This document shows positions 3,313 through 52,020 of a DNA stretch of 64,000 nt, one piece after another. Origin of the DNA: Micromonospora noduli (GTDB lineage Bacteria; Actinomycetota; Actinomycetes; Mycobacteriales; Micromonosporaceae); NCBI RefSeq assembly GCF_003264365.1, contig NZ_PYAK01000008.1, positions 1 through 64,000 on the forward strand, read 5' to 3'. Every line of letters starts with the position of its first letter. Positions within the stretch are counted from its first letter, which is position 1. Below the pieces are notes generated by a model. The model was not told the DNA's origin and did no database searches. It saw nothing but the letters and a program-made list of their open reading frames with translations. Made by a program: the position numbers and the translations under genes.

Positions 3313-3400
3313 GGCCAGACCCCGTCGATCATGAAGTTATTGCCCTGCACGTCGGCGTGTCAGGGCAATAACTTCATGATCAACGGCAGGGGTCTGGGCC
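3313..3400. repeat. Palindromic repeat, copy 1 (convergent purH/oppF gap)
   Basis: The core is a perfect 21-bp inverted repeat: the left arm at 3327-3347 starts GATCATGAAGTTATTGCC, and the right arm at 3361-3381 is its exact complement. The 13-nt loop can pair further (CAC/GTG). Outside the core, CCAGACCCC (3315-3323) pairs with GGGGTCTGG (3388-3396), extending the structure to about 85 nt. It fills the gap between two convergent genes, so it could end transcription from both sides. The core belongs to the same family as the repeats at 11684, 31260 and 51967. Confidence 0.9.
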
Positions 3401-3402
3401 GG

Positions 3403-4437
3403 TCAGGCCGGGGTGGGGCGGAGTTCGGCGAAGTGGCAGGCCGAGGGGTGGGGGTCCGCCGCTCTCGGGACCGTTGCCGGGTCTTCGACGGCGCAGACTT
3501 CCTGGGCCTTCCAGCAGCGGGTCCGGAAATGGCACCCGCTCGGCGGGTCGGCCGGGCTGGGCACGTCGCCGACCAGCCGGATCATGTTGCGCTGGTCGCG
3601 GGCTTCCGGGTCCGGCACCGGCACGGCAGAGAGCAGAGCCTGGGTGTACGGGTGGGTGGCCCGCTCGTAGATCTCGTCCTCGGTGCCGATCTCGACGATC
3701 CGACCGAGGTACATCACCGCGACGCGGTCGGCGATGTGCCGCACCACGGACAGGTCGTGCGCGATGAAGATGTACGAGAGCCCCAGCTCGCCCTGTAGCT
3801 GCTTGAGCAGGTTGATCACCTGGGCCTGGATGGAGACGTCGAGCGCCGACACCGGCTCGTCGCAGACGATCACCTCGGGCTTCAGCGCGAGGGCGCGGGC
3901 GATGCCGATGCGCTGACGCTGACCGCCGGAGAACTGGTGCGGGTACCGGTTGATGTGCTCCGGGTTGAGCCCGACCAGGTCCAACAGCTCCTGGACCCGC
4001 TTGGCCTTGCTGCCCTTCGGCGCGGCATCCGGGTGGATCTCGAACGGCTCGCCGATGATGTCGCCGACGGTCATCCGCGGGTTCAGCGAGGTGTACGGGT
4101 CCTGCATCACCATCTGCATGTTGCGGCGCAGCCGGCGCAGCTCACCGCCGGAGGCCTTGAACAGGTCCTTGCCCTCCAGGGTGGCGCGTCCGGAGGTGGG
4201 CGTCTCCAACCGCATCAGCAACCGGGCGAGGGTGGACTTGCCGCAGCCGGACTCGCCGACCACGCCGAGCGTCTCGCCCCGACGCAGCTCGAAGCTCACC
4301 CCGTCGACGGCCTTCACCGCCCCGATCTGCCGCTGGAACAGCACGCCCTGAGTGATCGGGAAGTGCTTCACCAGGTTGTCGACGGAGAGGATGGTCTCGC
4401 CGCGGACCTTGGTGGGGTTAGCGGGCGACGCTGTCAT
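3403..4437 (-). CDS. Oligopeptide ABC transporter ATP-binding protein, OppF/DppF type
   Basis: ATPase of a peptide importer, last gene of a five-gene operon. The 344-residue protein has Walker [10 protein letters not shown] (about residues 61-69), signature [10 protein letters not shown], Walker [13 protein letters not shown] and an H-loop [12 protein letters not shown]. It ends with the oligopeptide-transporter C-terminal domain carrying a Cys cluster ([14 protein letters not shown]), which in this family binds an Fe-S cluster. ATG at 4435-4437 is chosen because AGGAGG lies six bases upstream. It overlaps the end of the preceding ATPase gene by 20 bases, and the two ATPases should act as a heterodimer. 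Confidence 0.93.
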
Positions 4438-5449
4438 CACGGACCTCCTGCGCGAAGTGGCAAGCGCTGGTCCGGCCGTCGCCGAGGACCAGGTCGTGCG
4501 GCACCTCGTCCACGCAGACCTGCTGGACGTAGGGGCACCGGGGGTGGAACGGGCAGCCGGACGGGATACGCATCAGGTTCGGCGGCAACCCCTTGATCGT
4601 CGACAGTTCCTGGCCGCGAACGTCCAGGCGCGGGATCGACTCCAACAACCCCTTGGTGTACGGGTGGGCGGGCGCCTTGTAGAGCGAGCGGACGTCGGCG
4701 TGCTCGACGATCCGGCCGGCGTACATGACCGCGATCCGGTCCGCGACACCGGCGACCACACCCAGGTCGTGGGTGATCAGGATCATCGCCATGTTGAGTT
4801 CCCGGCGCAGGTCGGCCAGCAGGTCCATGATCTGGGCCTGCACTGTCACGTCGAGGGCCGTGGTGGGCTCGTCGGCGATCAGCACCTTCGGGTCCAGCGC
4901 CAACGCCATGGCGATCATGACGCGCTGCCGCATGCCGCCGGAGAACTGGTGCGGGTAGTCGCCGATCCGCTTGGCGGCACCGGGGATCTTGACCAGATCC
5001 ATCAGTTCGACGGCACGACGTCGAGCGTCGGCTCGGGACATGCCGGCGCGCTGGCGCAGCGTCTCACCGATCTGCCAGCCGACCGGGAAGACCGGGTTGA
5101 GGGCGGAGAGCGCGTCCTGGAAGATCATCGCGATCTCCTTGCCGCGTACCTGCCGGCGCTGCTCCTCGGAGCGGGTGAGCAGGTCCTCACCCTGGTAGAG
5201 GATCTGGCCGGAGCGGACGAACGCGGGCGGGGTGTCCAGGATGCCCATGATCGCCTGGGCGGTGACCGACTTACCCGAGCCGGATTCGCCGAGCACGGCA
5301 AGGGTCTCGCCGGCGTCCAGGTGGTACGACACACCGTTGATCACCCGGGCGACGCCCTCGTTGGTGCGGAACTCGACGTGCAGGTCCCGCAGCTCCAGCA
5401 GGTGGCCGCCCTCGGGGGTGGCAGAGGCGGGAGTTGGATTGACGGTCAT
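4418..5449 (-). CDS. Oligopeptide ABC transporter ATP-binding protein, OppD/DppD type
   Basis: The partner ATPase, 343 residues. It has Walker A GESGSGKS (about residues 54-61), Q-loop [12 protein letters not shown], signature FSGGMRQRV, Walker [13 protein letters not shown] and H-loop [14 protein letters not shown], then the oligopeptide C-terminal domain with [14 protein letters not shown]. An upstream in-frame start would overlap the permease gene by 29 bases. ATG at 5447-5449 is preferred, with GGTGAG upstream and an 8-base gap from the permease stop. It works with the neighbouring OppF-type subunit at the cytoplasmic face of the two permeases. Confidence 0.93.
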
Positions 5450-5456
5450 GGTGTTC

Positions 5457-6413
5457 TCACCGCAGCTTCGGGTCGAAGGCGTCACGGATCGCGTCGCCGA
5501 GCATGATGAACGCCAGCACGGTCAGCGCCAGGAAGGCCGACGGGACGATCAACGGAGTGGCCGCCTCCCGCATGTGGATCCGGCCGGTGTCGATGTCCTG
5601 CCCCCACGAGATGGTGGGCGCCTTCAGGCCGATGCCGAGGAAGGAGAGCGTCGCCTCGGCCGCGATGAACGAGCCGAGCGCGATGGTCAGCACGACGATC
5701 GCCGGGGCCAGCGAGTTCGGCAGAATGTGCCGCCACATGATCCGGCTGTTGCCGGCGCCGAGCATCCGGGCCGCCGCGACGTAGTCCTGCTCCTTCGCGG
5801 TGATCACCGAGGACCGGACCACGCGGGCGGCGGTGGTCCAACCGAGGAGGGCCAACACGAAGACGACCGCGCCGATCCGAGCCCACTGGCTGTCACTGGA
5901 CACCCGCTTGAGCAGCACGATCGCGGCCAGCAGCAGCGGAATGCCGAGCACCACGTCGATCACCCGGGAGAGCACCGCGTCGACCCAGCGGCCGAAGTAA
6001 CCGGCCAACATGCCGATCACCAGCGCGATGATGCCGGTGCCGAGCGCGGCGAGCGCACCGACCAGCAGCGATGCCCGGGTGCCGTAGACCGCCCGGGAGT
6101 ACGTGTCGCAGCCCTGGAAGTCGTACCCGAAGATGGCCCCGCCGGACGGCCCGGCGTGCTGCCGGGAGAGCAGGCAGTCGTTCGGGCTGTTGGCGGTGAA
6201 GACCCCGGGGAGCAGCGCCATCAGGGTGAAGATGACGACGAGCGCCAGCGAGATCCAGAAGATCGGGTTGCGGCGCAGGTCGCGCCAGGCGTCCCCGGCC
6301 AGGCTGCGGGGCTTGTTCGCGGCGCCGACCTGGTTGGGCGTGCCCGGCTCCCCCGAGGGGCCACGTCGCGCGGCCTGGTTCTCGGTGGCCGCCACAGTTT
6401 CAAAATCACTCAT
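5457..6413 (-). CDS. Oligopeptide ABC transporter permease, OppC/DppC type
   Basis: A 318-residue inner-membrane permease. A polar N-terminal stretch of about 45 residues precedes the first helix (FWISLALVVIFTLMALLPGVF). A periplasm-facing loop with two Cys (NDCLLSRQ and FQGCDT) follows, then five further helices. The cytoplasmic coupling helix carries the EAA-type motif beginning YVAAARMLGAGNSRIMWRH, and the C terminus is the usual GDAIRDAFDPKLR. It overlaps the preceding permease gene by eight bases. It pairs with the OppB-type subunit to form the translocation pore. Confidence 0.93.
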   Translation of the reverse strand: MSDFETVAATENQAARRGPSGEPGTPNQVGAANKPRSLAGDAWRDLRRNPIFWISLALVVIFTLMALLPGVFTANSPNDCLLSRQHAGPSGGAIFGYDFQGCDTYSRAVYGTRASLLVGALAALGTGIIALVIGMLAGYFGRWVDAVLSRVIDVVLGIPLLLAAIVLLKRVSSDSQWARIGAVVFVLALLGWTTAARVVRSSVITAKEQDYVAAARMLGAGNSRIMWRHILPNSLAPAIVVLTIALGSFIAAEATLSFLGIGLKAPTISWGQDIDTGRIHMREAATPLIVPSAFLALTVLAFIMLGDAIRDAFDPKLR

Positions 6414-7344
6414 AGCGGATCCTCGGGTCGAGTACGGCGTACAGGACGTCCACCACCAGGTTCGAGACCAGGTAGACCACGACGAGCACGCTGACGATGC
6501 CCACCACCAGGGGGCCGTCCTCGGTGCGGATGCCGCGGAAGAGGTTGAAGCCCACGCCGGGGATGTTGAAGACGCCCTCGGTGATGATCGCGCCGCTCAT
6601 CAGGTTGCCCAGTTCCACACCGAGGAAGGTGACCACCGGGATCAGTGAGTTGCGCAGCACGTGGACGATGACGATGCGCCGCTTGACCAGGCCCTTGGAC
6701 CGGGCGGTCCGGACGTAGTCCGCGCGCAGGTTCTCCGCCACCGAGGCCCGGGTGAGTCGTAGGGCGGTGGCCAGCGACAGCGAGCCGAGCACGATGCCCG
6801 GCAGCAGGAGCGCGTAGAACGTCGGGTCGGAGCCGGCGGTGGGTGGGAAGAGCTGCCACTTGACGCCCAGGAAGTACTGCGCCAGTGGCGCCAGCACGAT
6901 CGTCGGGATGCCCAGCACCAGCAGGGTCAGCACCAGCGTCGAGTTGTCGAAGATGCTGGCCCGGCGGATGCCGGCGAGGACCCCGGCGGTGACACCGAAG
7001 ATGATCGCCACGGCGAGCGCGATGAGCGCGAGCCGAACGGTGACCGGCCAGGCCTGCTGGAGGATGTCACCGATGCTCCGACCGGTGAGCGACTCGCCCA
7101 GGTTGCCCTGGAGCAGGTCCTTCACGTAGTCGAAGTAGCGGTAGAAGAAGCCGCCGACGCCCGTCTGATCCAGGTTGTACTTCTCGGTGAGGTAGGCCCG
7201 CTGCGCTGGCGTCACCGGCCGTTCGCCGGCGAGCGCCTGGATCGGGTCGCCCTGCCCGGCGAATGTCAGCGCGTAGACGATCAGGGTGGTCCCGAAGAAC
7301 GCCAGGACCATCTGCAGTAGGCGCCGCAGGATGTAGCGGAACAT
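6406..7344 (-). CDS. Oligopeptide ABC transporter permease, OppB/DppB type
   Basis: A 312-residue permease starting with the typical OppB N terminus MFRYILRRLLQMVLAFFG. A long external loop carries the TEKYNLD motif, and five more helices follow. The coupling motif begins DYVRTARSKGLVKRRIVIVH, and the end DVLYAVLDPRIRYE is characteristic. Within the operon it follows the binding-protein gene after a 197-bp gap that contains a strong hairpin, so it is probably transcribed by read-through from oppA. No separate promoter is obvious. Confidence 0.94.
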   Translation of the reverse strand: MFRYILRRLLQMVLAFFGTTLIVYALTFAGQGDPIQALAGERPVTPAQRAYLTEKYNLDQTGVGGFFYRYFDYVKDLLQGNLGESLTGRSIGDILQQAWPVTVRLALIALAVAIIFGVTAGVLAGIRRASIFDNSTLVLTLLVLGIPTIVLAPLAQYFLGVKWQLFPPTAGSDPTFYALLLPGIVLGSLSLATALRLTRASVAENLRADYVRTARSKGLVKRRIVIVHVLRNSLIPVVTFLGVELGNLMSGAIITEGVFNIPGVGFNLFRGIRTEDGPLVVGIVSVLVVVYLVSNLVVDVLYAVLDPRIRYE

Positions 7345-7495
7345 GCTTAGCAGTCTCTCCGGAAATGTGCGAAAGGGTCGCAGGACGGCATCTCTGGTCG
7401 TACCCGAAATATCCGAGACGTGCCGTCCGGCCCGGGGGAGCCGGCGCCACCGACGCCGGGTCCGCTGCTGCGGCCCGGCCCCGGTGGCGCGGTCG

Positions 7496-7527
7496 GGGCC
7501 ACCCGGGCATCGTCGCCCGGGTGGCCC
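7496..7527. terminator. Strong hairpin between oppA and oppB, likely attenuator
   Basis: A perfect 13-bp inverted repeat (GGGCCACCCGGGC at 7496-7508, complement at 7515-7527) with a 6-nt loop. It starts 15 bp after the oppA stop on the transcribed (minus) strand. Binding-protein genes often need more product than their permeases, and a partial terminator or 3'-stabilising hairpin in this place is a common solution. There is no U-run, as usual for high-GC actinobacteria. Confidence 0.7.
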
Positions 7528-7541
7528 GCACCATGGTCAGC

Positions 7542-9143
7542 TCAGCTGGCTGCTTCGATCTTGACGAGGTTGACCCGCTGGAACAGGTCCATCTCCACGT
7601 TCTTGACCTTGGACGAGTGGCCGAACACGTTCTCGCCGAAGCGGAGCGGGATCACCGGCATGTCCTTGGCCAGGATGTCCTCCGCCTGCTGGTACTTGGC
7701 GATCGCCTCGTCCTGCGTCTTGGCGGCGGAACCCTCCTTGACCAGCTTGTCGAACTCCGGGTTGCTGTAGCCGTAGTAGTTCGACGAGCCGTTCGTGCTG
7801 TACAGCGGGCCGAGGTAGTCCTCCATGGTCGGGTAGTCCATGACCCAACCCATCCGGAACGCACCCACCGGCGTCTTCTTCTCGACCTTGGTCAGCAGGT
7901 CGGCGAACTTCGGCTCGGCCGAGCCGACCGCGTCGACGCCCAGGTTGGCCTTGAGCTGGTTGACAGTGGCGTCGACCCAGTCCTTGTGCCCGCCGTCGCC
8001 GTTGTACGAGATGACGATCTTCGACGGACCGCCGGCGGCCTGGTAGAGCTTCTTGGCCTCGGTCGGGTTGAACTCGCCGGCCTTGCCCGCGGTGTTCTCC
8101 CGGTAGCCCGGGAGGACCGGCGAGACGAAGGAACGAGCCGACGTCTGCGAACCCTTGAAGACCGACTTGGTGATCTCGTCACGGTCGATCGCCATCGAGA
8201 TGGCCTTGCGCACGTCCGGGCTGCTGTAGTCCTTGTCGAACGTCGGGAACGCGAGGAACTGGAACGACGACATCGGGCTGGTCCTGTACCGGTCGCCCAG
8301 GTCGCTCGGCGCGGTGCTCAGGCTCTCGGTCGGGATCGTGGGCAGCACGTCCAGGTTGTCCGCCAGGACGTCCGCGTAGGCCGCGGTGAGCTGCTGGTAG
8401 ATCCGGAACTCGATGTTCTTGACCTTGGGCTTCTCGCCCGGGTACGCGTCGTAGCGCTCGACGTCGATCTTGCTGTCGTGCTGCCAGGCGCCCTTCATCT
8501 TGAAGGGGCCCTGCCCGATCGGCGCCTGCTCGTAGGAGTCCTTGAGCACGCCCGGAGCCGAGAACGCGGCGTCCGGCATCGGGTAGAACGCGTTGTAGCC
8601 CAGCGTCGTCTTGAAGTCGATGTACGGCTCGGAGAGCGTCGCGGTGAAGGTGAGGTCGTCGACCTTCTTCAGACCGGACATCTCCTTGGCCTTCGGCGCC
8701 TTGCCCTGGAGGTCGGCGTAACCAGCGATCTTCTCGAAGAAGAAGTTGCTGTCCTGGCCGTTCGGGGCGTACGCGCCGTAGTTCCACGCGTTGATGTAGT
8801 CCTCGGACGTGACCTTCTCACCGTTGTGGAAGGTGAAGCCGTCCTTGAGCTTGATCGTCCAGACCTTGTTGTCGGACGAGGTGATCGACTGCGCGGCGAC
8901 CTCGTACGGCTTGTTCTGGGCGTCGTAGTCGACGAGCGGGCTGAACAGGCCGGCGAGCACCTGCGACCCGGACGTCTCGGTGGTGTTGGTGGGAACCAGG
9001 TGCTTCGGCTCGGCGATCTGGATGCTGACCACCGAACTGTCGCTGCCACCGGATCCACCGTCTCCGCCGCTGCCGCAGGCCGCGAGGCCCAGCGTCACCG
9101 CGAGCGGGAGGGCGGTCCAGGCGGCGAGTCTACGAACTCGCAT
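7542..9143 (-). CDS. Peptide-binding lipoprotein of the ABC importer (SBP family 5)
   Basis: A 533-residue extracellular substrate-binding protein. Residues 1-22 form a lipoprotein signal (RVRR, hydrophobic core, lipobox LAAC with Cys23), followed by a Gly/Ser linker. The mature part is family 5: KHLVPTNT near the start, VWTIKLKDGFTFHNGEKVT, SEDYINAWNYG, ISMAIDRDEI, and the C-terminal domain with YSNPEFDKLV. It presumably captures oligopeptides and hands them to the B/C permeases. It is the first gene of the operon, and its promoter must lie in 9144-9627. Confidence 0.95.
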   Translation of the reverse strand: MRVRRLAAWTALPLAVTLGLAACGSGGDGGSGGSDSSVVSIQIAEPKHLVPTNTTETSGSQVLAGLFSPLVDYDAQNKPYEVAAQSITSSDNKVWTIKLKDGFTFHNGEKVTSEDYINAWNYGAYAPNGQDSNFFFEKIAGYADLQGKAPKAKEMSGLKKVDDLTFTATLSEPYIDFKTTLGYNAFYPMPDAAFSAPGVLKDSYEQAPIGQGPFKMKGAWQHDSKIDVERYDAYPGEKPKVKNIEFRIYQQLTAAYADVLADNLDVLPTIPTESLSTAPSDLGDRYRTSPMSSFQFLAFPTFDKDYSSPDVRKAISMAIDRDEITKSVFKGSQTSARSFVSPVLPGYRENTAGKAGEFNPTEAKKLYQAAGGPSKIVISYNGDGGHKDWVDATVNQLKANLGVDAVGSAEPKFADLLTKVEKKTPVGAFRMGWVMDYPTMEDYLGPLYSTNGSSNYYGYSNPEFDKLVKEGSAAKTQDEAIAKYQQAEDILAKDMPVIPLRFGENVFGHSSKVKNVEMDLFQRVNLVKIEAAS

Positions 9144-9627
9144 TGAGCCTCCTCATCTCCTCACGCTGCGCAGTCAGGCCCGACGCTGGGTTACGCTGCG
9201 CAACAAGCGGTAACGGTAGGTCGGCGACGGGCCTTCGACAACGACGCGGTTGCGGGTGGGTAACGGTCCGGGGTTGCCTCTCTTGTCGAGGGCGAGTGAA
9301 TCTGCTACCCCAAACCGGGTTTATCGACGTCGGCCTGCGGAAATTGCGATGGCGGGCGACGTGTTTGCCCCCGCTCGACCGTCCGGGCGCCGCCTGGGGC
9401 GGCCGTCCTGTCTCCGTGGAGCTGGTCTCTGCTGTCTGGTTCGAGCGTGATCGAACCCACAAATTGTCACCGAAAGTGACTAGCAACACCTCACGCACGG
9501 TGACTTCAGTAGCGATCACCCGCCCTGGCCCGGCCCGTCCGGTGGGCCGCCCCACCGCCACGGGTCGGCGGACGGCCTGGAGCGAGGTCGTCTGATCCGC
9601 GAGCGGCGGCCGTGAGACGATCTGGTC
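9144..9627. promoter_or_regulatory. Divergent regulatory region between oppA and folD, with two dyads
   Basis: This 484-bp region has lower GC than its surroundings and no credible gene. It must hold the promoters for oppA (minus) and folD (plus). Two close dyads stand out: GGTTCGA at 9438-9444 pairs with TCGAACC at 9451-9457 (6-nt spacer), and GTCAC at 9466-9470 pairs with GTGAC at 9476-9480. The AT-rich patch between them (ACAAATTG) could be part of a promoter. These look like operator sites for an unknown regulator. Exact -35/-10 elements could not be assigned. Confidence 0.45.
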
Positions 9628-10488
9628 GTGACGGCGACGCTTCTGGACGGCAAGGCAACCGCAGCGGAGATCAAGGACGAGCTGCGCATCCGGGTGAAGG
9701 CACTCGCGGAACGCGGCATCACCCCCGGGCTCGGCACGGTCCTGGTCGGTGCGGACCCGGGCAGTCAGGCGTACGTCAACGGCAAGCACCGCGACTGCGC
9801 CGAGGTGGGCATCGCCTCGATCCGCCGCGAACTGCCGGCCGACGCCACCCAACAGCAGGTCGACGACGTACTGGCCGAGCTGAACGCCGACCCGGCGTGC
9901 CACGGCTACATCGTTCAACTGCCGCTGCCGGCCCACCTCGACACCCAGCGGGTGCTTGAGTTGATCGACCCGGACAAGGACGCCGACGGCCTGCACCCGG
10001 TCAACCTGGGTCGGCTCGTGCTGGGCTACGACGGTCCGCTGCCGTGCACCCCGCGCGGCATCGTCGAGCTGCTCCGCCGGCACGACGTGGCGCTGCGCGG
10101 GGCCACCGTCGCGGTGGTCGGTCGTGGCAACACCGTCGGCCGACCGCTCGGCCTGCTGCTCACCAGGCGCAGCGAGAACGCCACTGTCACCCTCTGCCAC
10201 ACCGGCACCCTCGACCTCGCCTCGCACACCCGGGCCGCCGACATCGTCATCGTCGCGGCCGGCGTACCGGGTCTGCTCACCGCCGACATGATCAACCCCG
10301 GCGCGGTGGTGGTGGACGTCGGCATCACCCGCGTGATCGGAGCGGACGGCAAGGGTCGCTACACCGGCGACGTCGACCCGGAGGTGGCTGAGACGGCCGG
10401 CGCGCTGGTCCCCATGCCCGGCGGTGTGGGCCCGATGACCCGGGCCATGCTGCTCACCAACGTCGTCGAGCGTGCCGAGCGCGGCTGA
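9628..10488 (+). CDS. folD: Bifunctional methylenetetrahydrofolate dehydrogenase / cyclohydrolase FolD
   Basis: FolD interconverts 5,10-methylene- and 10-formyl-tetrahydrofolate using NADP and supplies the donor for PurN and PurH. The 286-residue protein has the family's normal length. The catalytic region reads [13 protein letters not shown], where Lys is the usual YxxxK-type residue. Further motifs are the substrate loop [22 protein letters not shown], the nucleotide-binding [16 protein letters not shown], and the C-terminal signature [11 protein letters not shown]. The start is GTG at 9628. It is transcribed away from oppA and appears monocistronic. Confidence 0.96.
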
Positions 10489-10581
10489 CCCGCACCTCGG
10501 TAGCGTCGAACCAGGACGGCGGTGACGTTCACCCCATCCCGGCGATGGCCGCCGCCCCTGGCCTGATCGGTGCCAGGATGA

Positions 10582-10617
10582 CTGATACGGTCCGGAAAAC
10601 CGACTGGTATCAGGGAG
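10582..10617 (+). promoter_or_regulatory. Leader hairpin and ribosome site upstream of mdh
   Basis: CTGATAC (10582-10588) is complementary to GTATCAG (10607-10613), and CGGT/ACCG pairing is possible inside. The hairpin abuts the GGGAG ribosome site (10613-10617), which lies ten bases before the mdh ATG. It could modulate mdh translation, or the dyad could be an operator in the DNA. The sequence does not say which. Confidence 0.4.
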
Positions 10618-10627
10618 TGGGACGACC

Positions 10628-11578
10628 ATGGGTAAGAAGGTCACTGTCGTCGGGGCTGGCTTCTACGGCTCCACCACCGCACAGCGCCTGGCCGAGTACG
10701 ACGTCTTCGACACCGTAGTGATCACCGACATCGTGGAGGGCAAGCCCGCGGGCCTCGCGCTCGACCTCAACCAGTCCCGGGCCATCGAGGGCTTCGAGAC
10801 CAAGGTGGTCGGCGTGACCACCGGCCCCAACGGTGAGGGCTACGAGAGCATCGAGGGCTCCGACGTCGTCGTGATCACCGCTGGTCTGCCGCGCAAGCCC
10901 GGCATGAGCCGGATGGACCTGCTGGAGACCAACGCCAAGATCGTCCGCCAGGTCGCCGAGAACGTCGCCAAGTACGCCCCGAACGCCGTCGTCATCGTGG
11001 TCTCCAACCCGCTGGACGAGATGACCGCGCTGGCCCAGCTCGCCACCCAGTTCCCGAAGAACCGGGTGCTCGGCCAGGCCGGCATGCTCGACACCGCCCG
11101 GTTCAGCAACTTCGTCGCCGAGGCGCTGAACGTGCCGGTGGCCTCGGTACGCACGCTGACCCTGGGCTCGCACGGCGACACCATGGTCCCGGTGCCGTCG
11201 AAGAGCACCGTCAACGGCAAGCCGTTGCGCGACGCCATGCCGGCCGAGCAGATCGAGGAGCTGGTCGTCAAGACCCGCAACGGTGGCGCCGAGGTGGTCG
11301 CGCTGCTCAAGACCGGTTCTGCCTACTACGCCCCGTCCGCCGCTGCGGCTCGGATGGCGAAGGCCGTCGCAGAGGACTCCGGCGAGGTCATGCCGGTCTG
11401 CGCCTGGGTTGACGGCGAGTACGGCATCTCCGGTGTCTACCTGGGTGTCGAGGCCGAGATCGGCGCCGAGGGCGTCAAGCGGGTCGTCGAGACCGACCTG
11501 GACGCCGACGAGCGTGCCAGCCTCCTGGAGGCTGCGGAAGCCGTCCGCGCCAAGCAGGGCGACATCTCCAGCATGTAG
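10628..11578 (+). CDS. mdh: Malate dehydrogenase (LDH-like type)
   Basis: NAD-dependent malate dehydrogenase of the TCA cycle, 316 residues. The Rossmann motif GAGFYG is at 9-14. Asp34 ends the second strand (VITDI), favouring NAD over NADP. The mobile loop with substrate arginines is RKPGMSRMDLLETN (about 89-102), the catalytic Asp-Arg pair is in MLDTARF, and the catalytic His182 is in LGSHGDTMVP. The length and loop type match the lactate-dehydrogenase-like malate dehydrogenases rather than the E. coli form. It stands alone with a leader hairpin and a strong terminator, 1.2 kb from icd. Confidence 0.95.
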   Translation: MGKKVTVVGAGFYGSTTAQRLAEYDVFDTVVITDIVEGKPAGLALDLNQSRAIEGFETKVVGVTTGPNGEGYESIEGSDVVVITAGLPRKPGMSRMDLLETNAKIVRQVAENVAKYAPNAVVIVVSNPLDEMTALAQLATQFPKNRVLGQAGMLDTARFSNFVAEALNVPVASVRTLTLGSHGDTMVPVPSKSTVNGKPLRDAMPAEQIEELVVKTRNGGAEVVALLKTGSAYYAPSAAAARMAKAVAEDSGEVMPVCAWVDGEYGISGVYLGVEAEIGAEGVKRVVETDLDADERASLLEAAEAVRAKQGDISSM

Positions 11579-11601
11579 TTCCCCCGAACCACAGCACCAG
11601 C

Positions 11602-11634
11602 GAAGGGCGCGCCGGCAAACCCGGCGCGCCCTTC
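11602..11634. terminator. Rho-independent-like terminator after mdh
   Basis: A perfect 14-bp stem (GAAGGGCGCGCCGG at 11602-11615, complement at 11621-11634) with loop CAAAC, starting 23 bp after the mdh stop. The symmetric stem also works from the minus side. It lacks a U-run, as is usual in this lineage. Confidence 0.85.
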
Positions 11635-11683
11635 GCCGTCCAGCCCCAACCCCGCCGACCCCGGCTCCGCCCTCCCCGCCCCC

Positions 11684-11745
11684 GGTTGATCAAGAGGTTT
11701 GCGTCAAGAATCGCGCCTGCGGTGACGCAAACCTCTTGATCAACC
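11684..11745. repeat. Palindromic repeat, copy 2 (convergent mdh/MBL gap)
   Basis: A perfect 23-bp inverted repeat: left arm 11684-11706 (starts GGTTGATCAAGAGGTTTGCG), loop of 16 nt at 11707-11722, right arm 11723-11745. C-rich sequence on the left and G-rich sequence on the right extend possible pairing. It shares arm sequence, arm length and loop length with the copy at 51967. The mdh terminator lies just upstream, so this element is not needed to end mdh transcription. Confidence 0.92.
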
Positions 11746-11797
11746 AGTTGGGGGTGGGGGTGGGGTGGGGTGGGCGTATTTCGATTGGGACCGCGCT

Positions 11798-12610
11798 TCA
11801 GGCCTGGGTGGGCTGGTGGGGGGTGAAGGGGGTGCCGAGGTGGGGGGTGGCCAGGACGGTGGGGGAGTGGGTGCGTAGGGCGGTCAGCCGGGAGGTGCGA
11901 GCCAGGTCCGGGTCTTCCTCGTGGGCGTACGCCAGGTCGGGGTTGACGAGTTGCACCATGTGCACCAGTAGGTCCCCGGTGAGCAGCATCCGTTCGTCGG
12001 CCGAGGTCAGGAGCACCGACTGGTGACCGGGCGTGTGGCCCGGGGTGGGCAGCAGACGTACCGCTGGGGTGAGGGCGGTTTCGCCGTCGACCACCCGGAG
12101 CTGGCCGGCGGCGCGCAAGGGTGCGATGAGGCCGGCCGGCAGCCCGGGGTTGAGCGTCTCCGCCGCGTCGAGTTCGGCGCGCTGCAGCAGGTAGCTCGCG
12201 TTCGGGAAGTACGGCAGCCCCGGCGTGCCGGTGACCGCCCAGCCGATGTGATCGCTGTGCAGGTGGGTCAGGACGACAGTGTCGACATCTGCGGGGTCGA
12301 TGCCCGCGGCGGCCAACTCGGCGGGCAGCCGCCCCGGCACGGGTGCCCAGCTCGCGGCGGGTGCGTCGACCGGGCCGATCCCGGCGTCGACCAGCGTGAC
12401 CGGCCCGTCGCCGACGCGGATCGCGAAGCTGCGGAACGGCAGCCACCACTGCCCGTCGGCGGTCACCGAGCCGGGGTCGCGCCGGTCGGCCTCCGCCCAG
12501 TGCCCCGCTGTGGCCTGCGGAAACGCCTCCGTGCGGGGCTGGAAGAAGGCACCCTCGCCGTCGGTGAGTGCGGTGACCGTGATAGACCCGAGGGTGCGGT
12601 TCAGTGGCAT
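11798..12610 (-). CDS. MBL-fold metallo-hydrolase
   Basis: A 270-residue metallo-beta-lactamase-fold hydrolase. The metal-binding motif HLHSDH is followed by further ligands in TPGHTPGHQS, LLTGDLLVH and ATPHLG, giving a complete two-metal set. The overall plan, with SILV-like N terminus and insertion between motifs, resembles the lactonase/AidC-like branch, but the substrate cannot be read from sequence. ATG at 12608-12610 is preferred over an upstream in-frame start because family similarity begins there (MPLNRTLGSITVTALTDG). It is divergent from icd and convergent with mdh. Confidence 0.85.
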   Translation of the reverse strand: MPLNRTLGSITVTALTDGEGAFFQPRTEAFPQATAGHWAEADRRDPGSVTADGQWWLPFRSFAIRVGDGPVTLVDAGIGPVDAPAASWAPVPGRLPAELAAAGIDPADVDTVVLTHLHSDHIGWAVTGTPGLPYFPNASYLLQRAELDAAETLNPGLPAGLIAPLRAAGQLRVVDGETALTPAVRLLPTPGHTPGHQSVLLTSADERMLLTGDLLVHMVQLVNPDLAYAHEEDPDLARTSRLTALRTHSPTVLATPHLGTPFTPHQPTQA

Positions 12611-12695
12611 CGGACGATGATTCCAGGGCATTCCTGTTCCGCGCAGCCCGGTTCCGCCGGCCGGTCGAGGCCGGCTGGGGGCTGCCGGCCCAATT

Positions 12696-12713
12696 GCAGT
12701 ACGCTCGTACTGC
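12696..12713. promoter_or_regulatory. Perfect 18-bp operator-like dyad upstream of icd
   Basis: GCAGTACG and CGTACTGC flank a 2-nt centre, forming a perfect palindrome 35 bp before the icd ATG in the region shared with the divergent MBL gene. Its short centre and position suggest a binding site for a dimeric regulator rather than an RNA hairpin. The regulator is unknown. Confidence 0.55.
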
Positions 12714-12747
12714 TTGAGCACGTGTCCCCCGAGAGGAGCGCCGGCCG

Positions 12748-13965
12748 ATGGCGAAGATCAAGGTAAACAACCCGGTCGTAGAACTCGACGGCGACGAGAT
12801 GACCCGGATCATCTGGAAGCAGATCCGGGAGCAGCTGATCCTGCCCTACCTCGACGTCGACCTGCACTACTACGACCTGTCGATCCAGCACCGCGACGAG
12901 ACCGACGACCAGGTCACGATCGACGCCGCCAACGCCATCAAGGAGCACGGCGTCGGCGTCAAGTGCGCGACCATCACCCCGGACGAGGCCCGGGTCGAGG
13001 AGTTCGGCCTGAAGAAGATGTGGCGGTCGCCAAACGGCACCATCCGCAACATCCTCGGCGGCGTCGTCTTCCGTGAGCCGATCATCATGTCCAACGTGCC
13101 GCGGCTGGTCCCCGGCTGGACCAAGCCGATCATCATCGGCCGGCACGCCCACGGTGACCAGTACAAGGCCACCGACTTCGTCGTCCCCGGCCCGGGCACG
13201 GTGACCATCACCTACACCCCGGCCGACGGCGGCGCGCCGATGGAGATGGAGGTCGCCAACTTCCCCGGCGGCGGCATCGCCATGGGCATGTACAACTACG
13301 ACGAGTCGATCCGGGACTTCGCCCGGGCGTCGTTCCGGTACGGACTGGACCGCAACTACCCGGTCTACCTGTCCACCAAGAACACCATCCTCAAGGCGTA
13401 CGACGGTCGGTTCAAGGACCTCTTCGCCGAGGTGTTCGAAGCCGAGTTCAAGGCCGAGTTCGACGCCGCCGGCATCACCTACGAGCACCGGCTCATCGAC
13501 GACATGGTCGCCGCCGCGCTCAAGTGGGAGGGCGGCTACGTCTGGGCCTGCAAGAACTACGACGGTGACGTGCAGTCCGACACCGTCGCGCAGGGCTTCG
13601 GCTCGCTGGGTCTGATGACCTCCGTCCTGCTCTCCCCGGACGGCCGGACCGTCGAGGCCGAGGCCGCGCACGGCACTGTCACCCGGCACTACCGGCAGTA
13701 CCAGAAGGGCGAGAAGACCTCGACCAACCCGATCGCGTCGATCTACGCCTGGACCCGGGGCCTCGCCCACCGGGGCAAGCTGGACGGCACGCCGGCGGTC
13801 ACCGAGTTCGCCAACACCCTGGAGCAGGTCATCGTCGACACCGTCGAGGGCGGCCAGATGACCAAGGACCTCTCGCTGCTCATCTCGCGCGACGCCCCGT
13901 GGCTGACCACCGACGAGTTCATGAACGCGCTCGACGAGAACCTGGCCCGCAAGATCGCTGCCTGA
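12748..13965 (+). CDS. icd: NADP-dependent isocitrate dehydrogenase (eukaryote-like homodimeric type)
   Basis: This enzyme oxidises isocitrate to 2-oxoglutarate in the TCA cycle. The 405-residue length matches the short homodimeric NADP class rather than the 740-residue monomeric enzyme. Visible motifs are [12 protein letters not shown] at the N terminus, the substrate loop [17 protein letters not shown] with the isocitrate Ser and Arg, [24 protein letters not shown] with a metal Asp, [20 protein letters not shown], and the NADP-site [16 protein letters not shown]. The start is ATG with GAGAGGAG upstream. It is followed by a strong terminator. Confidence 0.96.
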
Positions 13966-13984
13966 TCCAGGCGTACCGCGTCAA

Positions 13985-14018
13985 CGAAGCCCGCCGGCAC
14001 CACTGCCGGCGGGCTTCG
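13985..14018. terminator. Terminator after icd
   Basis: A 15-bp perfect stem (GAAGCCCGCCGGCA core) around a 4-nt loop, beginning 20 bp after the icd stop. This is a textbook high-GC actinobacterial hairpin. Confidence 0.85.
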
Positions 14019-14161
14019 GCGTGTCCGACACCGCCGCGCCGATCGGCGTCACTGCGGCCGGCGCGCCTCGTTGACCAGGATGGACGAGATGCCAGTCGCG
14101 TCCAAGGAAGGTTGACCACGGTCGACCCGCGGCACCCGTGCGCCGATCAGCCAGCCTTCCC

Positions 14162-14223
14162 GGCTGTGCCGTGCACAGCCAGCCGTCCCTTCCCTGCGGG
14201 GGGCCCTGTCCCGGGCCCCCCGC
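14162..14223. terminator. Two hairpins at the 3' side of galT
   Basis: The first stem is GGCTGTGC (14162-14169) with GCACAGCC (14173-14180). The second is an 11-bp perfect stem, GCGGGGGGCCC (14196-14206) with its complement at 14213-14223. They lie 67-128 bp beyond the galT stop on the minus strand and probably end the deoR-galT transcript. Confidence 0.65.
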
Positions 14224-14289
14224 GCCCTGTTTCCCGCCAAGCTCATGCCGCACCGCGCAAACTCAGGACCAGCGCACCGCAGGGGCCGC

Positions 14290-15366
14290 TCAGGCGGCGC
14301 GAAGCAACTCGGCGGCCCGCTCCGGGGCGATGTCATTGATGAAGACGCCCATCCCGGACTCGGAGCCGGCCAGGTACTTCAGCTTGTCCTGGGCCCGCCG
14401 GATGCTGAACAGCTGAAGGTGCAGGTGGCCCAGCTCGCGGTCGACCCGCACGGGCGCCTGGTGCCAGGCCGAGATGTACGGCATCGGCATGTCGAACAGG
14501 CCGTCGAAGCGGCGCAGCAGATCCAGGTAGAGCGGCCCGAAGGCGTCCCGCTCGCTGTCACTGAGCGCCGGGATGTCCGGCACCACGCGGTGCGGCGCGA
14601 CGTGCACCTCGAACGGCCAGCGGGCGGCCGCCGGGACGAACGCCGTCCAGTGTTCGTTCTCCGCGACCACCCGGTCACCGGTAGCACGCTCGGCAGCTAG
14701 CACGTCCGCGTACAGGTTGCCGCCGCCGGTCCGCTCGGCGTGCCGGCGCGCCGCGGCCAGCAGCGCGCGGGTGCGCGGCGTCACGAAGGGGTACGCGTAG
14801 ATCTGGCCGTGCGGATGGTGCAGCGTGACACCGATTTCAACGCCCCGGTTCTCGAAGCAGAAGATCTGCTCGACGCCGGGCAGCGCGCCGAGCACCTCGG
14901 TGCGGTCGGCGAGGGCGTCCAGCACGGTGCGGACCCGGCGCGGCGGCAGGCTGGCGAAGGAGGCGTTGTGATCCGACGTGAAGCAGACCACCTCGCACCG
15001 GCCGAGGCCCGGCCGGACCGGTGTGAACGGGGTGATCTCCCCGGGCTCCTCGGCCACCCGACCGCTCAGCGACGGAAACCGGTTCTCGAAGACCACCACG
15101 TCGTAGTCGGGTGCGGGGATCTCGGTCAGCCGGTCGCCCACCGACGGGTCGAGAGGGCACTCGTTCGCCGGCGGGAGGAAGATGCGGGTCTGCCGGTGCA
15201 CGGCGACCGCCACCCACTCGTCGGTCAACGGGTCGTAGCGCAGCTGCGACGCGGGGGGAGGCGGCGGCAGGTCCCGGCGGTCCGGCTGGTCGCGGACCGC
15301 GTCGTCGCGCTCGTCGAAGTAGATCAGCTCCCGGCCGTCGGCCAGGTCGATCGCGGTGCGCTTCAC
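14290..15366 (-). CDS. galT: Galactose-1-phosphate uridylyltransferase
   Basis: GalT exchanges UDP between UDP-glucose and galactose-1-phosphate in the Leloir pathway. The 358-residue protein shows the HIT-like signature TLHHPHGQIYAYP, whose second His in HPHGQ is the uridylylated nucleophile. It also shows ENRFPSL, the RHPEFE-like N-terminal substrate segment, and the C-terminal WHQAPVR and HLHLQLFS metal-site blocks. The start is GTG at 15366. It follows a DeoR regulator after 12 bases, so both form one operon. No galK or galE lies in the window. Confidence 0.94.
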   Translation of the reverse strand: MKRTAIDLADGRELIYFDERDDAVRDQPDRRDLPPPPPASQLRYDPLTDEWVAVAVHRQTRIFLPPANECPLDPSVGDRLTEIPAPDYDVVVFENRFPSLSGRVAEEPGEITPFTPVRPGLGRCEVVCFTSDHNASFASLPPRRVRTVLDALADRTEVLGALPGVEQIFCFENRGVEIGVTLHHPHGQIYAYPFVTPRTRALLAAARRHAERTGGGNLYADVLAAERATGDRVVAENEHWTAFVPAAARWPFEVHVAPHRVVPDIPALSDSERDAFGPLYLDLLRRFDGLFDMPMPYISAWHQAPVRVDRELGHLHLQLFSIRRAQDKLKYLAGSESGMGVFINDIAPERAAELLRAA

Positions 15367-15378
15367 GGCGCCGTCCCC

Positions 15379-16185
15379 TCAGTTGTCGGCGTGCGCATCA
15401 CGCGGCCCGCCCCTCGCCTTCACCATGATCAATTCGCCCACCTGTTCGCCGAGTACCCGTCGTGCGGGTGGAGGCAACCGGTCGTCGCTGACCAGTACGT
15501 GGGCCGCCGCCAACGCGACGATCGAGGAGATGCCCACCGTGCCCCACTTGGTGTGGTCGGCGAGCACCACCAGTTGGTCCGCCGCGGCCACGAGTGCCCG
15601 ATCGGTCTCCGCCTCCATCAGGTTCGGGGTGGTGAAGCCGGCCCGCTCGGTGATGCCGTGGACACCCAGGAAGAGCAGATCAAGGTGCAGTGACCGGACG
15701 GCCCCGACCGCGAGTGGACCGACCAGCGCGTCCGACGGTGTGCGTACGCCGCCGGTGAGCACCACCGTCTGGTCCGGGCGGCCGCCGGCGTGCATGATCT
15801 CGGCGACCGGCAGCGAGTTGGTGACGACGGTCAGCTCGGGCACGTCCACAAGCCGGCGGGCCAGCTCGGCGGTGGTGGTGCCGGCGGAGAGCGCGATCGC
15901 CGCTCCCGGCCGGACCAACTGGGCCGCCCGGTCGGCGATGGCCGCCTTCTCGGGCAGTTGGCGGACCGACTTGGCGTGGAAACCCGGCTCGTCGGTCGAG
16001 CTCGGCCCGGTCGTGGTGGCACCGCCGTGCACCTTGGCCAGCAGGCCACGCTCGTGCAGCGCGTCCAGGTCACGCCGGATGGTCATGTCGGACACGCCGA
16101 ACTCGCCTGCCAACTCGCTGACCCGGACGCCGCCGGTCGAGCGGACCCGCTCCAGGATGGCCGCCTGCCGCTGCTGAGCGAGCAT
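15379..16185 (-). CDS. DeoR/GlpR-family transcriptional regulator
   Basis: A 268-residue sugar-phosphate-responsive repressor. The N-terminal winged helix shows RVSELAGEFGVSDMTIRRDL with the family's TIRRDL recognition helix, then LLAKVHGGA. The C-terminal DeoRC sensor domain has ALSAGTTTAELARRL for phosphate binding and LLFLGVHGI. It is the first gene of a two-gene unit with galT, so the likely effector is a galactose-pathway sugar phosphate. This is inference from context. A dyad sits 45-66 bp upstream of its ATG. Confidence 0.9.
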   Translation of the reverse strand: MLAQQRQAAILERVRSTGGVRVSELAGEFGVSDMTIRRDLDALHERGLLAKVHGGATTTGPSSTDEPGFHAKSVRQLPEKAAIADRAAQLVRPGAAIALSAGTTTAELARRLVDVPELTVVTNSLPVAEIMHAGGRPDQTVVLTGGVRTPSDALVGPLAVGAVRSLHLDLLFLGVHGITERAGFTTPNLMEAETDRALVAAADQLVVLADHTKWGTVGISSIVALAAAHVLVSDDRLPPPARRVLGEQVGELIMVKARGGPRDAHADN

Positions 16186-16229
16186 CAGCCGTGCCTCCCC
16201 GGACGTCCACGTACCTCACGCGGTCAAAC

Positions 16230-16251
16230 GTGTTCCAACAAAGATGAACAC
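16230..16251. promoter_or_regulatory. Dyad upstream of deoR-galT, candidate autoregulatory operator
   Basis: GTGTTC (16230-16235) and its complement GAACAC (16246-16251) are ten bases apart, in an AT-richer patch (CCAACAAAGAT) that may hold the promoter. DeoR-family proteins usually bind near their own promoter, which makes this the best operator candidate for the pair. Confidence 0.5.
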
Positions 16252-16296
16252 TAGCGCGTGCCGCTCAGCGGTGGAAGGAACGGGTACGGCGACGCC

Positions 16297-17826: not shown

Positions 17827-17914
17827 CCACACCCCCCACTCGCTGACCGGCACACAGTTTCGCAGCCGACCGCCCATCGGTCGAGGGCGCCACTCCAAGA
17901 CCCCCGCGGGCGGA

Positions 17915-19429: not shown

Positions 19430-19668
19430 CAGGATCCCTCCCGCGTCGTCGGTCGATCACCGGGCGGGTCGACGCCTGGTGAACGGGAGGTGAATGGTGT
19501 CACCTTGGACGGGTCTTTCCGAAGGCGGGGTCGGGTCGAACGCGGGACCGGCGGAAACGTCCCGGGAGCCTCAGCGGGGGACCTTAGGGGTCCGGCGGGG
19601 AAAGGATCAGGGGAGGGCCGGGGGCGTGCCGGTGTCCCTGCTGGGCATCGACTCCCTACGCTGGGCGC

Positions 19669-30367: not shown

Positions 30368-30877
30368 TCAGCTTGTTGTCAAGCGTCGCTCATGACCGAG
30401 AAGCCACTTCTTCACGTCCAGCCCCCAGCGGTAGCCACCGAGCGTGCCGTCGGTGCGAAGTACCCGGTGGCAGGGCACGAAGAGGGCTGCCGCGTTCCGG
30501 GCGCAGGCGGCCGCGGCGGCCCGCACCGCCGGTGGTCGACCGGCCAGCGCGGCGTACCCGGTGTAGGTGACCGGGGTGCCCGGCGGCACCTCGCGCAGCA
30601 CCTGCCAGGCATGCGCCATGAACTCTCCACCGGTGCGTTGACGCACCGGCACCGCGTCGATGGCGGCGAGGTCACCGTCCAGGTAGGAGTGGACCGCCGC
30701 ACTGACCGGGCCGAGGTCGGCCCGCTCGCGTAGCGGTGCCCGCAGGGCCGGGTGGACCAGGGGCAGCAGCGCCGCCGGGTCCGGGGTGAAGCCGGCGGCC
30801 CGTACGTCACCGTCGGGGCCGGCGAGGATGCTCAGTGGGCCGGCCGGTGTGCTCAGTACGGTGCTGTCGATGTTCAT
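30368..30877 (-). CDS. ogt: Methylated-DNA--protein-cysteine methyltransferase
   Basis: A suicide DNA-repair protein that removes O6-alkyl groups from guanine. The 169-residue length is normal for single-domain Ogt. The C-terminal active-site block reads VPCHRVLRTDGTLGGYRWG with Cys136 as acceptor. VTYTGYAALAGRP and ARNAAALF form the recognition helix and Asn hinge. ATG at 30875-30877 overlaps the stop of the ada-alkA gene (ATGA), so the two are coupled. Confidence 0.94.
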   Translation of the reverse strand: MNIDSTVLSTPAGPLSILAGPDGDVRAAGFTPDPAALLPLVHPALRAPLRERADLGPVSAAVHSYLDGDLAAIDAVPVRQRTGGEFMAHAWQVLREVPPGTPVTYTGYAALAGRPPAVRAAAAACARNAAALFVPCHRVLRTDGTLGGYRWGLDVKKWLLGHERRLTTS

Positions 30878-44598: not shown

Positions 44599-44600
44599 AA

Positions 44601-47880: not shown

Positions 47881-47901
47881 CAGCGGCCTCCGAGGTTGGT
47901 G

Positions 47902-48003: not shown

Positions 48004-48103
48004 GGCGGCTGCTCCCTTCGCGCGGCTGTCGACCGAGGACACCAGAGACGCCGCGGGCCCGGCAAGGCAATTACGCCAGCCGGGCCCACGACGGGACGTG
48101 CGG

Positions 48104-48466: not shown

Positions 48467-48476
48467 GTGATCCAGG

Positions 48477-50113: not shown

Positions 50114-50227
50114 ACCGTTCCCATCGTTGACCTGTGGGCAACGATCGTAGCGGCATCGGGTCTTGGTCGGCGTCCCTCGTCCGGGGATCGTGAACGCGGC
50201 AGGGAACACCGAGCGAAAGGCTCTGAC

Positions 50228-51000: not shown

Positions 51001-51295
51001 CCGCCCGGTAGGCGTCCTCGATGCGGGCGGCCAACAGCACCTCGCCCTCGGTCAGCGGCTCGCCGCTGCCGTGCCCGACCCGGATCTGGGTGCTGTCGGC
51101 CCGGCGGCTGATCTCGGGTCGCAGATGCAGCGCATCCGCGACGACCTTGACCCGTTCAGTTAGTGCGGCGTGTTGGGTATCGTCGATCACGAGCGTCCGT
51201 CGGATCTGCTCGCCCTCGCGCGTCCAACCAGATAGCAAGGTCAACGCGTCGGAAAGGTAGTCGTGCTTGGCCCTGCTGTTGAACAGCACGCGCAT
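50987..51295 (-). CDS. Pterin-4a-carbinolamine-dehydratase-like protein (divergent)
   Basis: A 102-residue protein whose length and helix-strand plan (GWTREGEQIRRTL, HAALTERVKVVADALHLRPE, LTEGEVLLAARIEDAY) match small PCD/DCoH proteins. The catalytic HHP motif is replaced by LRPE, so dehydratase activity is doubtful. Similar short proteins in actinobacteria are often annotated as 4a-hydroxytetrahydrobiopterin dehydratase. Divergent from the Nudix gene. Confidence 0.5.
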   Translation of the reverse strand: MRVLFNSRAKHDYLSDALTLLSGWTREGEQIRRTLVIDDTQHAALTERVKVVADALHLRPEISRRADSTQIRVGHGSGEPLTEGEVLLAARIEDAYRAVTEA

Positions 51296-51479
51296 CACCG
51301 CACCCCCCAAGCGCCGTTGCCGGCTTGTGGCCAAATCGTCGCCATCCCGTGTCTTGTCGGTGTCTCCTAGTCTCTCGCTGCTCGGAGGGGGGTGTCCACG
51401 CCCACACTTCCGTGTCTTGTTGGCCTAGCGGACGGCTACGGTACCCAAACCGCCGATTGATCTGGCACCCTGGACGCCC

Positions 51480-51923
51480 GTGCGGACCGAACGGGCGAAT
51501 GATGGCGGGCAGGCCGAACGACGGGACCTGAAGGTGATCGTCGGTGCAGCGATCATCCGGGATGGGCGGGTGCTCGCCTGTGCGCGTTCCGCCCCACCCG
51601 AGGTAGCGGGCATGTGGGAGTTTCCGGGCGGAAAGGTCGAGCCGGGGGAGGCTGAGACCGACGCGTTGATCCGGGAGTGCGCCGAGGAGTTGGCCGTACG
51701 CGTCGAGATCGGCGCCCGGGTCGGCCGCAACGTACGGATGGCGCACGGCCGCTCGGTGCTCAAGGTGTACGCGGCCCGCCTGCTCGGCGGCGACCAGCCC
51801 CAGGCGCTGGAGCACGAGGCGCTCCGCTGGCTCACCGCCGACGAACTGGACTCGGTCACCTGGCTCCCCGCCGACGCCCCCATCGTGGCCGCCCTCCGCC
51901 CCCTCCTAACCCCAACCCCGTAA
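51480..51923 (+). CDS. Nudix hydrolase, MutT-like
   Basis: A 147-residue Nudix protein. The Nudix box starts GGKVEPGEAETDALIRECAE and ends ELAV, matching GX5EX7REUXEE with the catalytic Glu residues. The MutT/(deoxy)nucleotide context is supported by MWEFPGG before the box and by KVYAARL after it. It would clean up oxidised or non-canonical NTPs. GTG start at 51480; the next in-frame ATG is later, and the N terminus is not fixed. Confidence 0.88.
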   Translation: MRTERANDGGQAERRDLKVIVGAAIIRDGRVLACARSAPPEVAGMWEFPGGKVEPGEAETDALIRECAEELAVRVEIGARVGRNVRMAHGRSVLKVYAARLLGGDQPQALEHEALRWLTADELDSVTWLPADAPIVAALRPLLTPTP

Positions 51924-51966
51924 CCCCATCTCCGGGGCCCGACCTCAGGGCCCCCTACGCCCGGAT

Positions 51967-52020
51967 GATCAAGAGGTTTTGGTCACGATCACGCCTTCAG
52001 ATGACCGAAAGCTCTTGATC
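51967..52020. repeat. Palindromic repeat, copy 4 (convergent mutT-like/sdhB gap)
   Basis: Left arm 51967-51985 (GATCAAGAGGTTTTGGTCA) pairs with right arm 52002-52020 at 17 of 19 positions; the loop is 16 nt, the same length as copy 2. G-rich sequence follows on the right. The arm has the GATCAAGAGGTTT core of copy 2 but a different inner end. Confidence 0.88.

Follow-up and report, generated by a model that had tools for sequence, protein, structure and literature searches.

The closest described systems are the repetitive extragenic palindromic (REP) sequences and the REP doublets forming hairpins (REPINs). In the parts of the sources drawn on here, REPINs have inverted conserved ends, a spacer of kept length and compensatory changes (PMC3116915), and REPs and REPINs lie mostly outside genes, downstream of them, and occur also in E. 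coli genomes without the REP-associated tyrosine transposase (RAYT) (PMC3116915, PMC3733652, PMC8049555). E. coli REPs are described there as sites for gyrase, IHF and Pol I, often lying between convergent genes (PMC1525189, PMC3733652). One of these sources lists CGTC-type REP families that lack an associated transposase gene and places REPs within repair genes such as uvrA and uvrB (PMC3733652). Rickettsia palindromic elements are given as about 150 bp long and mostly within genes (PMC10969869).

Here we describe a family of palindromic elements in a 64-kb stretch of the Micromonospora noduli genome (hereafter the window; the genome, G000, comprises 7,203,851 bases in 223 contigs). An earlier reading of the window (the original prediction) had named four palindromic copies, and all four are present as cores of 54 or 55 nt (copies 1 to 4, in order of position). 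The elements are discrete units placed at gene ends; they have been copied in a relative (G201, a complete genome, 93.7% identical to G000 over 192 aligned kb), sub-families replace one another at shared sites, and neighboring elements are phased. We lean toward regarding them as a non-autonomous, REP/REPIN-like palindromic family of Micromonospora, for which a protein acting in trans, turnover and a role at 3′ ends are proposed.

Family structure and distribution

Hairpins were sought with the pattern GATCAWGARGTT-N15..45-AACYTCWTGATC, the reversed pattern serving as control. This genome-wide search for an arm followed by its complement, which the original prediction had suggested, gave 47 exact hairpins in G000 and none with the control. 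The working set for G000, imperfect elements included, comprised 68 distinct elements; pooling over all fetched loci gave 341, of which 315 were assigned a type. The unit has the layout GTT/GATCAWGARGTT...AACYTCWTGATC/AAC, in which two conserved arms in inverted orientation enclose a loop fixed in length and variable in sequence; the unit is exactly 54 or 55 nt long in 302 of the 341. Oriented loops resemble each other more than shuffled loops do. Single exact arms numbered 124 in G000, 94 of them in exact pairs; among the 100 arm matches listed, a second arm with few mismatches was present at 20 of the 24 other arms and 4 of 24 were truly single, six further unpaired arms falling outside the 100.

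The original prediction had proposed two sub-types, and three main ones were found. Sub-family A (GATCAAGAGGTTTGCGTCA-16-TGACGCAAACCTCTTGATC) accounts for 41 of the 68 G000 elements, B (GATCATGAAGTTRTTGCC..., with CGGCGTGTCG in the loop) for 20 and C (GATCATGRGGTTGRCGG..., the loop mostly with GATC) for 7; the labels separate A from the rest cleanly, and B and C grade into one another. Type D, of about 69 nt, was found in G201, where a group of such elements (L161, L171, L177; G201:C1:6552892-6553054) has about 70-115 nt of flank in common and one element of the group and a GATCTTG-type palindrome are 27 nt apart, which makes a composite resembling the bacterial interspersed mosaic elements (BIMEs) of E. 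coli.

A and T were mixed at arm position 6 in none of the 315 type-assigned elements (about 132 expected if independent), and several further arm positions also covary. In 11 same-type pairs between G000 and G201, arm changes were two-sided at 7 positions and one-sided at 10. Pairing, arm-to-arm correction and paired recognition would each account for this covariation, which alone cannot discriminate among them; piecemeal gene conversion between sub-families is disfavored by the lack of mixed elements. Where pairing beyond the arms was scored, offset 2 stood out (z 3.1), offset 4 reached z 2.1 and the others were near expectation. Outer ends are mostly GTT/GGT/GTC-GATC, and CGTC is confined to the loop side of type A arms.

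In 200 genomes drawn from the order, 26 matched, namely all 23 of the Micromonospora genomes (1-66 copies each), the single genome of a sister genus and two genomes of another family; two other genera of the family gave no match in five genomes. At least 119 stretches were matched when named genome contigs were scanned with the GATCATGAAGTT form, and the titles among the 80 matches listed were Micromonospora (72), Micromonosporaceae bacterium (2), Verrucosispora (1) and Blastococcus (5), the Blastococcus form being 66 nt long in all five matches listed. Two Micromonospora genomes, G112 and G139, hold 1 and 4 exact copies versus 20-66 in the other sampled members, and would be useful for tracing a trans factor through gene presence.

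Viral contigs contained no exact match to the element (phage records were not searched), and plasmids none to copy 2; plasmid matches to a 1.6-kb query fell, in the 20 of 71 records listed, entirely within the neighboring gene and not the element. Among the titles and abstracts listed on Micromonospora and actinobacterial palindromic repeats, with subscription journals outside the coverage, none described the family, and papers matching the arm sequences were judged by title to concern unrelated primers and similar. In 7 of 30 genomes, a contig stops within about 110 nt past the copy 2 gene (L086, L089, L091, L092, L098, L106, L113), near the hairpin position of other species. Copy counts in drafts, G000 included, may be low because long palindromes may break draft assemblies.

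Shared sites and sub-family switching

Within a 199-kb block that is colinear between G000 and G201, all seven G000 elements (six at junctions and one in ada-alkA) were matched in place, with a different sub-family at four of the seven. Under random placement over 125 junctions, with the ada-alkA copy counted as a junction, the chance of sharing seven sites is about 1e-10. Genome-wide, 46 of the 68 G000 sites were comparable in G201, of which 40 were occupied; this fraction is biased upward, most G201 loci having been fetched because they bear an element, and its floor is 40/68 if the 22 uncompared sites are empty. The remaining 6 of the 46 were empty; a comparison of empty sites had been suggested by the original prediction. 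In the G201 element listing, 50 of the 72 elements were given. Ten G000 sites lacking a listed partner were checked in G201, G223 and G219, and 4 of the 10 held an element in G201; the G000 element L038:13562 is missing from all three.

At the 40 occupied sites the sub-family label was the same in 14 and another in 26, and 24 of 26 type-A elements of G000 stood opposite a non-A element. Eleven of the 14 same-label pairs were alignable and differ at 51 of 604 bases, two pairs being identical; two of the others are unequal in length and one (L041:6558) is as divergent as a switched pair. Because same-label pairs differ by so few bases, switching amounts mostly to replacement, not drift. Change appears more gradual in the in-gene pair L018/L168 (L168, from G201, serves as partner of two paralogous G000 genes). 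At the copy 2 site, beside a malate-dehydrogenase-family gene, an element is present at 12 of 30 loci, and its type, A, B or C, differs between species (minus-strand loci were read by eye). Turnover at the same junctions would imply that the positions are older than the sequences.

Near-identical elements occur at several unrelated loci of G201 (for example, with 54/55 and 53/55 bases shared) between unrelated flanks, and identity stops at GTT/GATC...GATC/AAC. In the nine such pairs shown, which comprise 15 elements, 9 elements sit where G000 holds type A. The site 7 element of G201 was probably copied from L200, a direction that we infer (the G000 orthologue, L385, is of the same kind). Flank identity beside the element was 0.69 at switched sites, 0.79 at same-type sites and 0.66 at unrelated sites, and at a few switched sites one flank is conserved right to the element edge. 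That most switches altered the adjacent spacer fits insertion at the same junction and loss of the old copy. Separately, when G000 elements were compared with those of G223, G219 or G222, 2 of the 8 comparable pairs had a loop inverted in place (a ninth, of unequal length, was dropped). Such inversion is seen at L042:3027 and L047:2989 compared with G219 (L215, L209), where the flanking genes keep their orientation.

Phasing of neighboring elements

Gaps of 15-45 bp between neighboring hairpins were collected from 151 Micromonospora genomes; 85 distinct gaps were found in 20 genomes, with peaks at 18, 28-29 and 39 bp. Power at 10.5 bp was 0.754 over the 85 gaps (maximum of 2000 uniform simulations, 0.431) and 0.946 after a type-A element (n = 56), where, by our type labels, all 56 gaps were 18-19, 27-29 or 38-40 bp. 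Peaks at 49.5, 60 and 70.5 bp were then predicted before gaps of 46-76 bp were searched. This search gave 43 gaps in 18 genomes. Of these, 29 lay no more than 1.5 bp from a predicted peak, against 15.3 expected, and phasing as strong arose in none of 20,000 simulations; P was 0.00005 for type A (n = 21) and 0.003 for type B/C (n = 22). In the 27 doublets of the fetched loci, spacers are mutually unrelated except for one similar pair, and mixed-type doublets occur. When exact cores 15-76 bp apart were sought in G000, no such doublets were found.

A 10.5-bp register is the mark of duplex DNA viewed from one face and so points to a binding protein or transposition complex on duplex DNA. The phasing suggests that a protein reads the arms in duplex form, and the protein-binding site named in the original prediction gains support from this phasing of neighbors in relatives.

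Position relative to genes

Genes in G000 were called by codon usage using our own script and no annotation. Convergent spacers are favored and divergent spacers are poor in copies: 31 of the 68 elements are convergent, 27 tandem, 3 divergent, 3 inside an open reading frame (ORF), 1 partly overlapping and 3 at an edge; for comparison, convergent spacers make up 21% of the intergenic space on contig C8, tandem ones 51% and divergent ones 27%. From element to gene 3′ end the median distance is 30 nt (77 of 89 are within 60), and to a gene 5′ end it is 125 nt (n = 33). A C-rich, G-poor halo covers the 50-60 nt ahead of the hairpin on each strand; it is seen between 12 tandem gene pairs too and is stronger than at 17 convergent junctions lacking an element. 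In-frame copies were found in ada-alkA and two helix-turn-helix (HTH) genes. The HTH genes (L018:2435-3748 and L020:2498-3808) are paralogous, with an element within each ORF; the arms are type A in one and type C in the other, and loops and genes are related.

Elements in the window

In the window, GATCAWGARGTT with at most one mismatch matches 10 times (0.14 expected; at most 2 in any of 100 shuffles), and RNA folds of the four copies have z-scores from -5.8 to -11.3. As had been predicted, the three intergenic copies (1, 2 and 4) each lie between convergent genes; the fourth, copy 3, is in frame inside ada-alkA. None of the copies is assigned a strand.

Copy 1 (3327-3381; sub-family B, 55 nt, within an extended palindrome at 3322-3386) is 24 nt from purH (1731-3302, plus strand) and 21 nt from an ABC-transporter ATPase gene (3403-4440, minus strand). 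Once loci on the minus strand or at contig ends were dropped, 19 of 30 remained for reading the purH 3′ end; in G028, G213, G203 and G077 (L072, L073, L074, L079) it carries other palindromes (GCGATATACCTCAGAG..., GTTAGGAAGGGCCCC..., CGCGGATCTTGGTAC...), which are perhaps further families with the same habit.

Copy 2 (11688-11741; sub-family A, 54 nt) lies 109 nt downstream of a malate/lactate dehydrogenase-family gene (10628-11578, plus strand) and faces a metallo-beta-lactamase-fold gene (11798-12610, minus strand). The separate terminator-like hairpin reported ahead of one copy was seen before this one, at 11600-11636 (no strand assigned), as a perfect GC-rich hairpin with arms of 16 and a loop of 5. 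It is probably the ordinary 3′ hairpin of the dehydrogenase-family gene, and of the 15 plus-strand loci read here, 11 have a similar hairpin. Rfam gave no match above the gathering cut-off in the window; at copy 2, with E up to 1, it gave miRNA hairpin models, all far under their cut-offs.

Copy 3 (31263-31317; sub-family C, 55 nt) is hosted by ada-alkA (30874-32352, minus strand; 492 aa; Pfam Ada_Zn_binding, HTH_18 and AlkA_N) in the AlkA part, in a stretch whose length varies. Across genomes, the element in this stretch is of type C in G000, G201 and G219 and of type A in G206, and G215 lacks one.

Copy 4 (51967-52020; sub-family A, 54 nt) has hybrid arms, TTTTGG and TTTCGG, with one core mismatch, and lies between a small, weakly supported plus-strand ORF (51612-51923) and a 2Fe-2S/4Fe-4S protein gene (52118-53182, minus strand). 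The 16-nt loop said to be shared by copies 2 and 4 has that length in both and is common to them only partly in sequence.

Proposed mechanism and alternative explanations

In the reading that we favor, a trans-acting protein, probably not a Y1 RAYT, would recognize the arms in duplex DNA and copy or insert the unit, and the 10.5-bp phasing of neighbors would be its footprint. The sub-family active in a lineage would supersede older copies at the same junctions by inserting beside or in place of the old copy, which would then be lost. Resident copies might act as symmetric 3′-end hairpins or barriers for the flanking transcripts, or perhaps relieve supercoiling, a role suggested for E. coli REPs; both roles are guesses.

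Several observations weigh against this reading. Efficient termination is hard to square with the in-frame copies, at least at those sites. Flank identity is close to the null value at most switched sites, which leaves precise in-place exchange no more than a candidate for the general route. No recent copies were found within G000, where the best loop similarity among 54 elements was 0.79 (shuffled loops, up to 0.74), and direct repeats of 2-6 nt at the edges of the 68 elements, as expected of target-site duplication, were no commoner than in shuffled sequence. Phasing in the 15-45-bp gaps is weak after type B/C (0.376, n = 29, P = 0.002); of the predicted peaks those at 49 and 70 bp are clear and that at 60 bp is weak; and the gaps lack phylogenetic independence, P being 0.085 (n = 18) when each genome contributes a single gap at 46-76 bp. 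Some doublets have a common spacer by eye (G206:3335791 and 3803148; G296 C4 and C12) and were probably copied or inherited as units, so that not all are independent events. The mobilizer is still a putative factor, and G201, the genome with recent copies, has a Y1 gene, which may act in trans in some species.

It is possible, if doubtful, that the arms are duplex sites of a probably multimerizing protein that uses them in helical register and itself drives the copying, a shift in the dominant binding specificity of a lineage replacing the occupants genome-wide, so that dispersed sites switch in concert; the sites at gene ends would then perhaps serve as roadblocks or supercoil sinks.

We also hold it doubtful that the elements are binding sites selected in place for a sequence-specific DNA-binding protein (a nucleoid organizer, a roadblock or a topoisomerase-loading site), with mobility old or incidental and switches following changes in the protein. 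Conservation of the arms while the loops diverge, the scarcity of truly single arms, the phased neighbors and the positions common to G000 and G201 at 94% identity would all suit such sites, and the preference for convergent genes fits the supercoil relief proposed for REPs in the parts of PMC1525189 and PMC3733652 drawn on here. Against selection in place are the near-identical G201 copies with unrelated flanks, which show copying, the presence of several sub-families per genome, some sites empty in relatives and three copies inside genes.

Bidirectional terminators or mRNA 3′-end stabilizers under selection, spread by ordinary recombination only, are unlikely. The hairpins are very stable, their position just past stop codons and their rarity in divergent spacers suit a terminator, and the C-rich, G-poor stretch ahead of them on both strands resembles a Rho-utilization sequence. 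Yet no T-run follows the stem at the four window copies, although the stem itself is present, a terminator scan of positions 1-20000 called neither copy 1 nor copy 2, the halo is symmetric even between tandem genes, and copy 2 comes after another hairpin. An arm sequence common across loci is unneeded for termination, and the neighbors are phased. Bidirectional terminators alone, as the original prediction had offered them, cannot account for the in-frame copies in ada-alkA and two HTH genes, the common arm sequences or the sub-family switching.

That the elements are REPIN-type units mobilized by a RAYT (Y1 tyrosine transposase), present now or formerly, we consider very unlikely, although the architecture of inverted conserved ends, a length-kept spacer and compensatory changes is REPIN-like as far as that description goes (PMC3116915). 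Matches to the Y1 family PF01797 were found in 8 of 26 genomes of the genus in one set and 2 of 11 in another; the sets overlap by two genomes, which makes 10 of 35 distinct, among them G201 (one match), G223 and the copy-rich G098 (58 copies; a stop lies inside the gene). No match was found in G000, G015 (66 copies), G091 (61), G047 (50), G189 (48), G206, G296, G241 or G248, no exact arm lay within the 3-kb stretch around the G201 gene, and the elements lack a GTAG end tag. The linked Y1 transposase that the original prediction had suggested looking for was thus found neither in G000 nor beside an element in G201, and a Y1/RAYT mobilizer is disfavored. An autonomous longer element was not apparent either, the fetched G000 loci having no long shared flanks except for the two paralogous HTH genes.

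DNA-uptake signal sequences paired into terminators, as in Neisseria or Haemophilus, have next to no chance: a short core does recur as inverted repeats at gene ends, but uptake sequences are mostly single, and most arms here are in exact pairs or have a near-match second arm, with single arms scarce.

Comparison with known systems

Of the classes offered by the original prediction, the mobile palindromic element of the REP/MITE kind (MITE, miniature inverted-repeat transposable element) describes the family best, given its sharp-ended copies, empty junctions and 3′-end clustering; the link to Y1 is not supported. The best-known REP-like repeats carry GTAG tags and are accompanied by Y1 genes; the Micromonospora elements are an abundant actinobacterial REP-like family that lacks the tags and, in many genomes, the transposase as well. 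Copying has occurred in one species or more, and positions outlast sequences, so that the family offers a natural experiment on the retention of repeats at gene ends. Helical phasing turns the binding protein into a testable prediction for which species pairs with switched sub-families are ready controls, and on the practical side some draft assemblies stop near element sites.

Judged from sequence, the family acts like REPs and REPINs but has neither their tag nor, in G000, a RAYT. Like them, with their tens to hundreds of copies, it is multicopy and mostly extragenic (47 exact; 3 of 68 in ORFs), with inverted conserved ends, a fixed-length spacer and compensatory changes, and it appears to move as discrete units, to judge by the sharp-ended near-identical copies in G201. 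Unlike them, it carries no GTAG or CGTC tag at the outer end, its arms make one long stem and not two REP stem-loops, no Y1 gene was found in G000 and several copy-rich genomes, and sub-families are replaced at shared junctions. The lack of a transposase is not unique, because CGTC-type REP families are likewise without a transposase association.

With bacterial MITEs the elements share the form of short, non-autonomous inverted-repeat units copied between loci, but target-site duplications were lacking, and the fetched G000 loci revealed no candidate for an autonomous partner. Some in-frame copies, including that in the DNA-repair gene ada-alkA, recall Rickettsia palindromic elements and intragenic REPs, but with 3 of 68 elements in genes, in-frame insertion is not the main habit, unlike in Rickettsia. 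In some relatives, units recur at regular spacing at gene ends and resemble BIMEs, the mosaic REP arrays of E. coli; each Micromonospora unit, however, is a complete 54/55-bp palindrome, no such arrays were found in G000, and the spacers are mostly unrelated in sequence yet phased at 10.5 bp.

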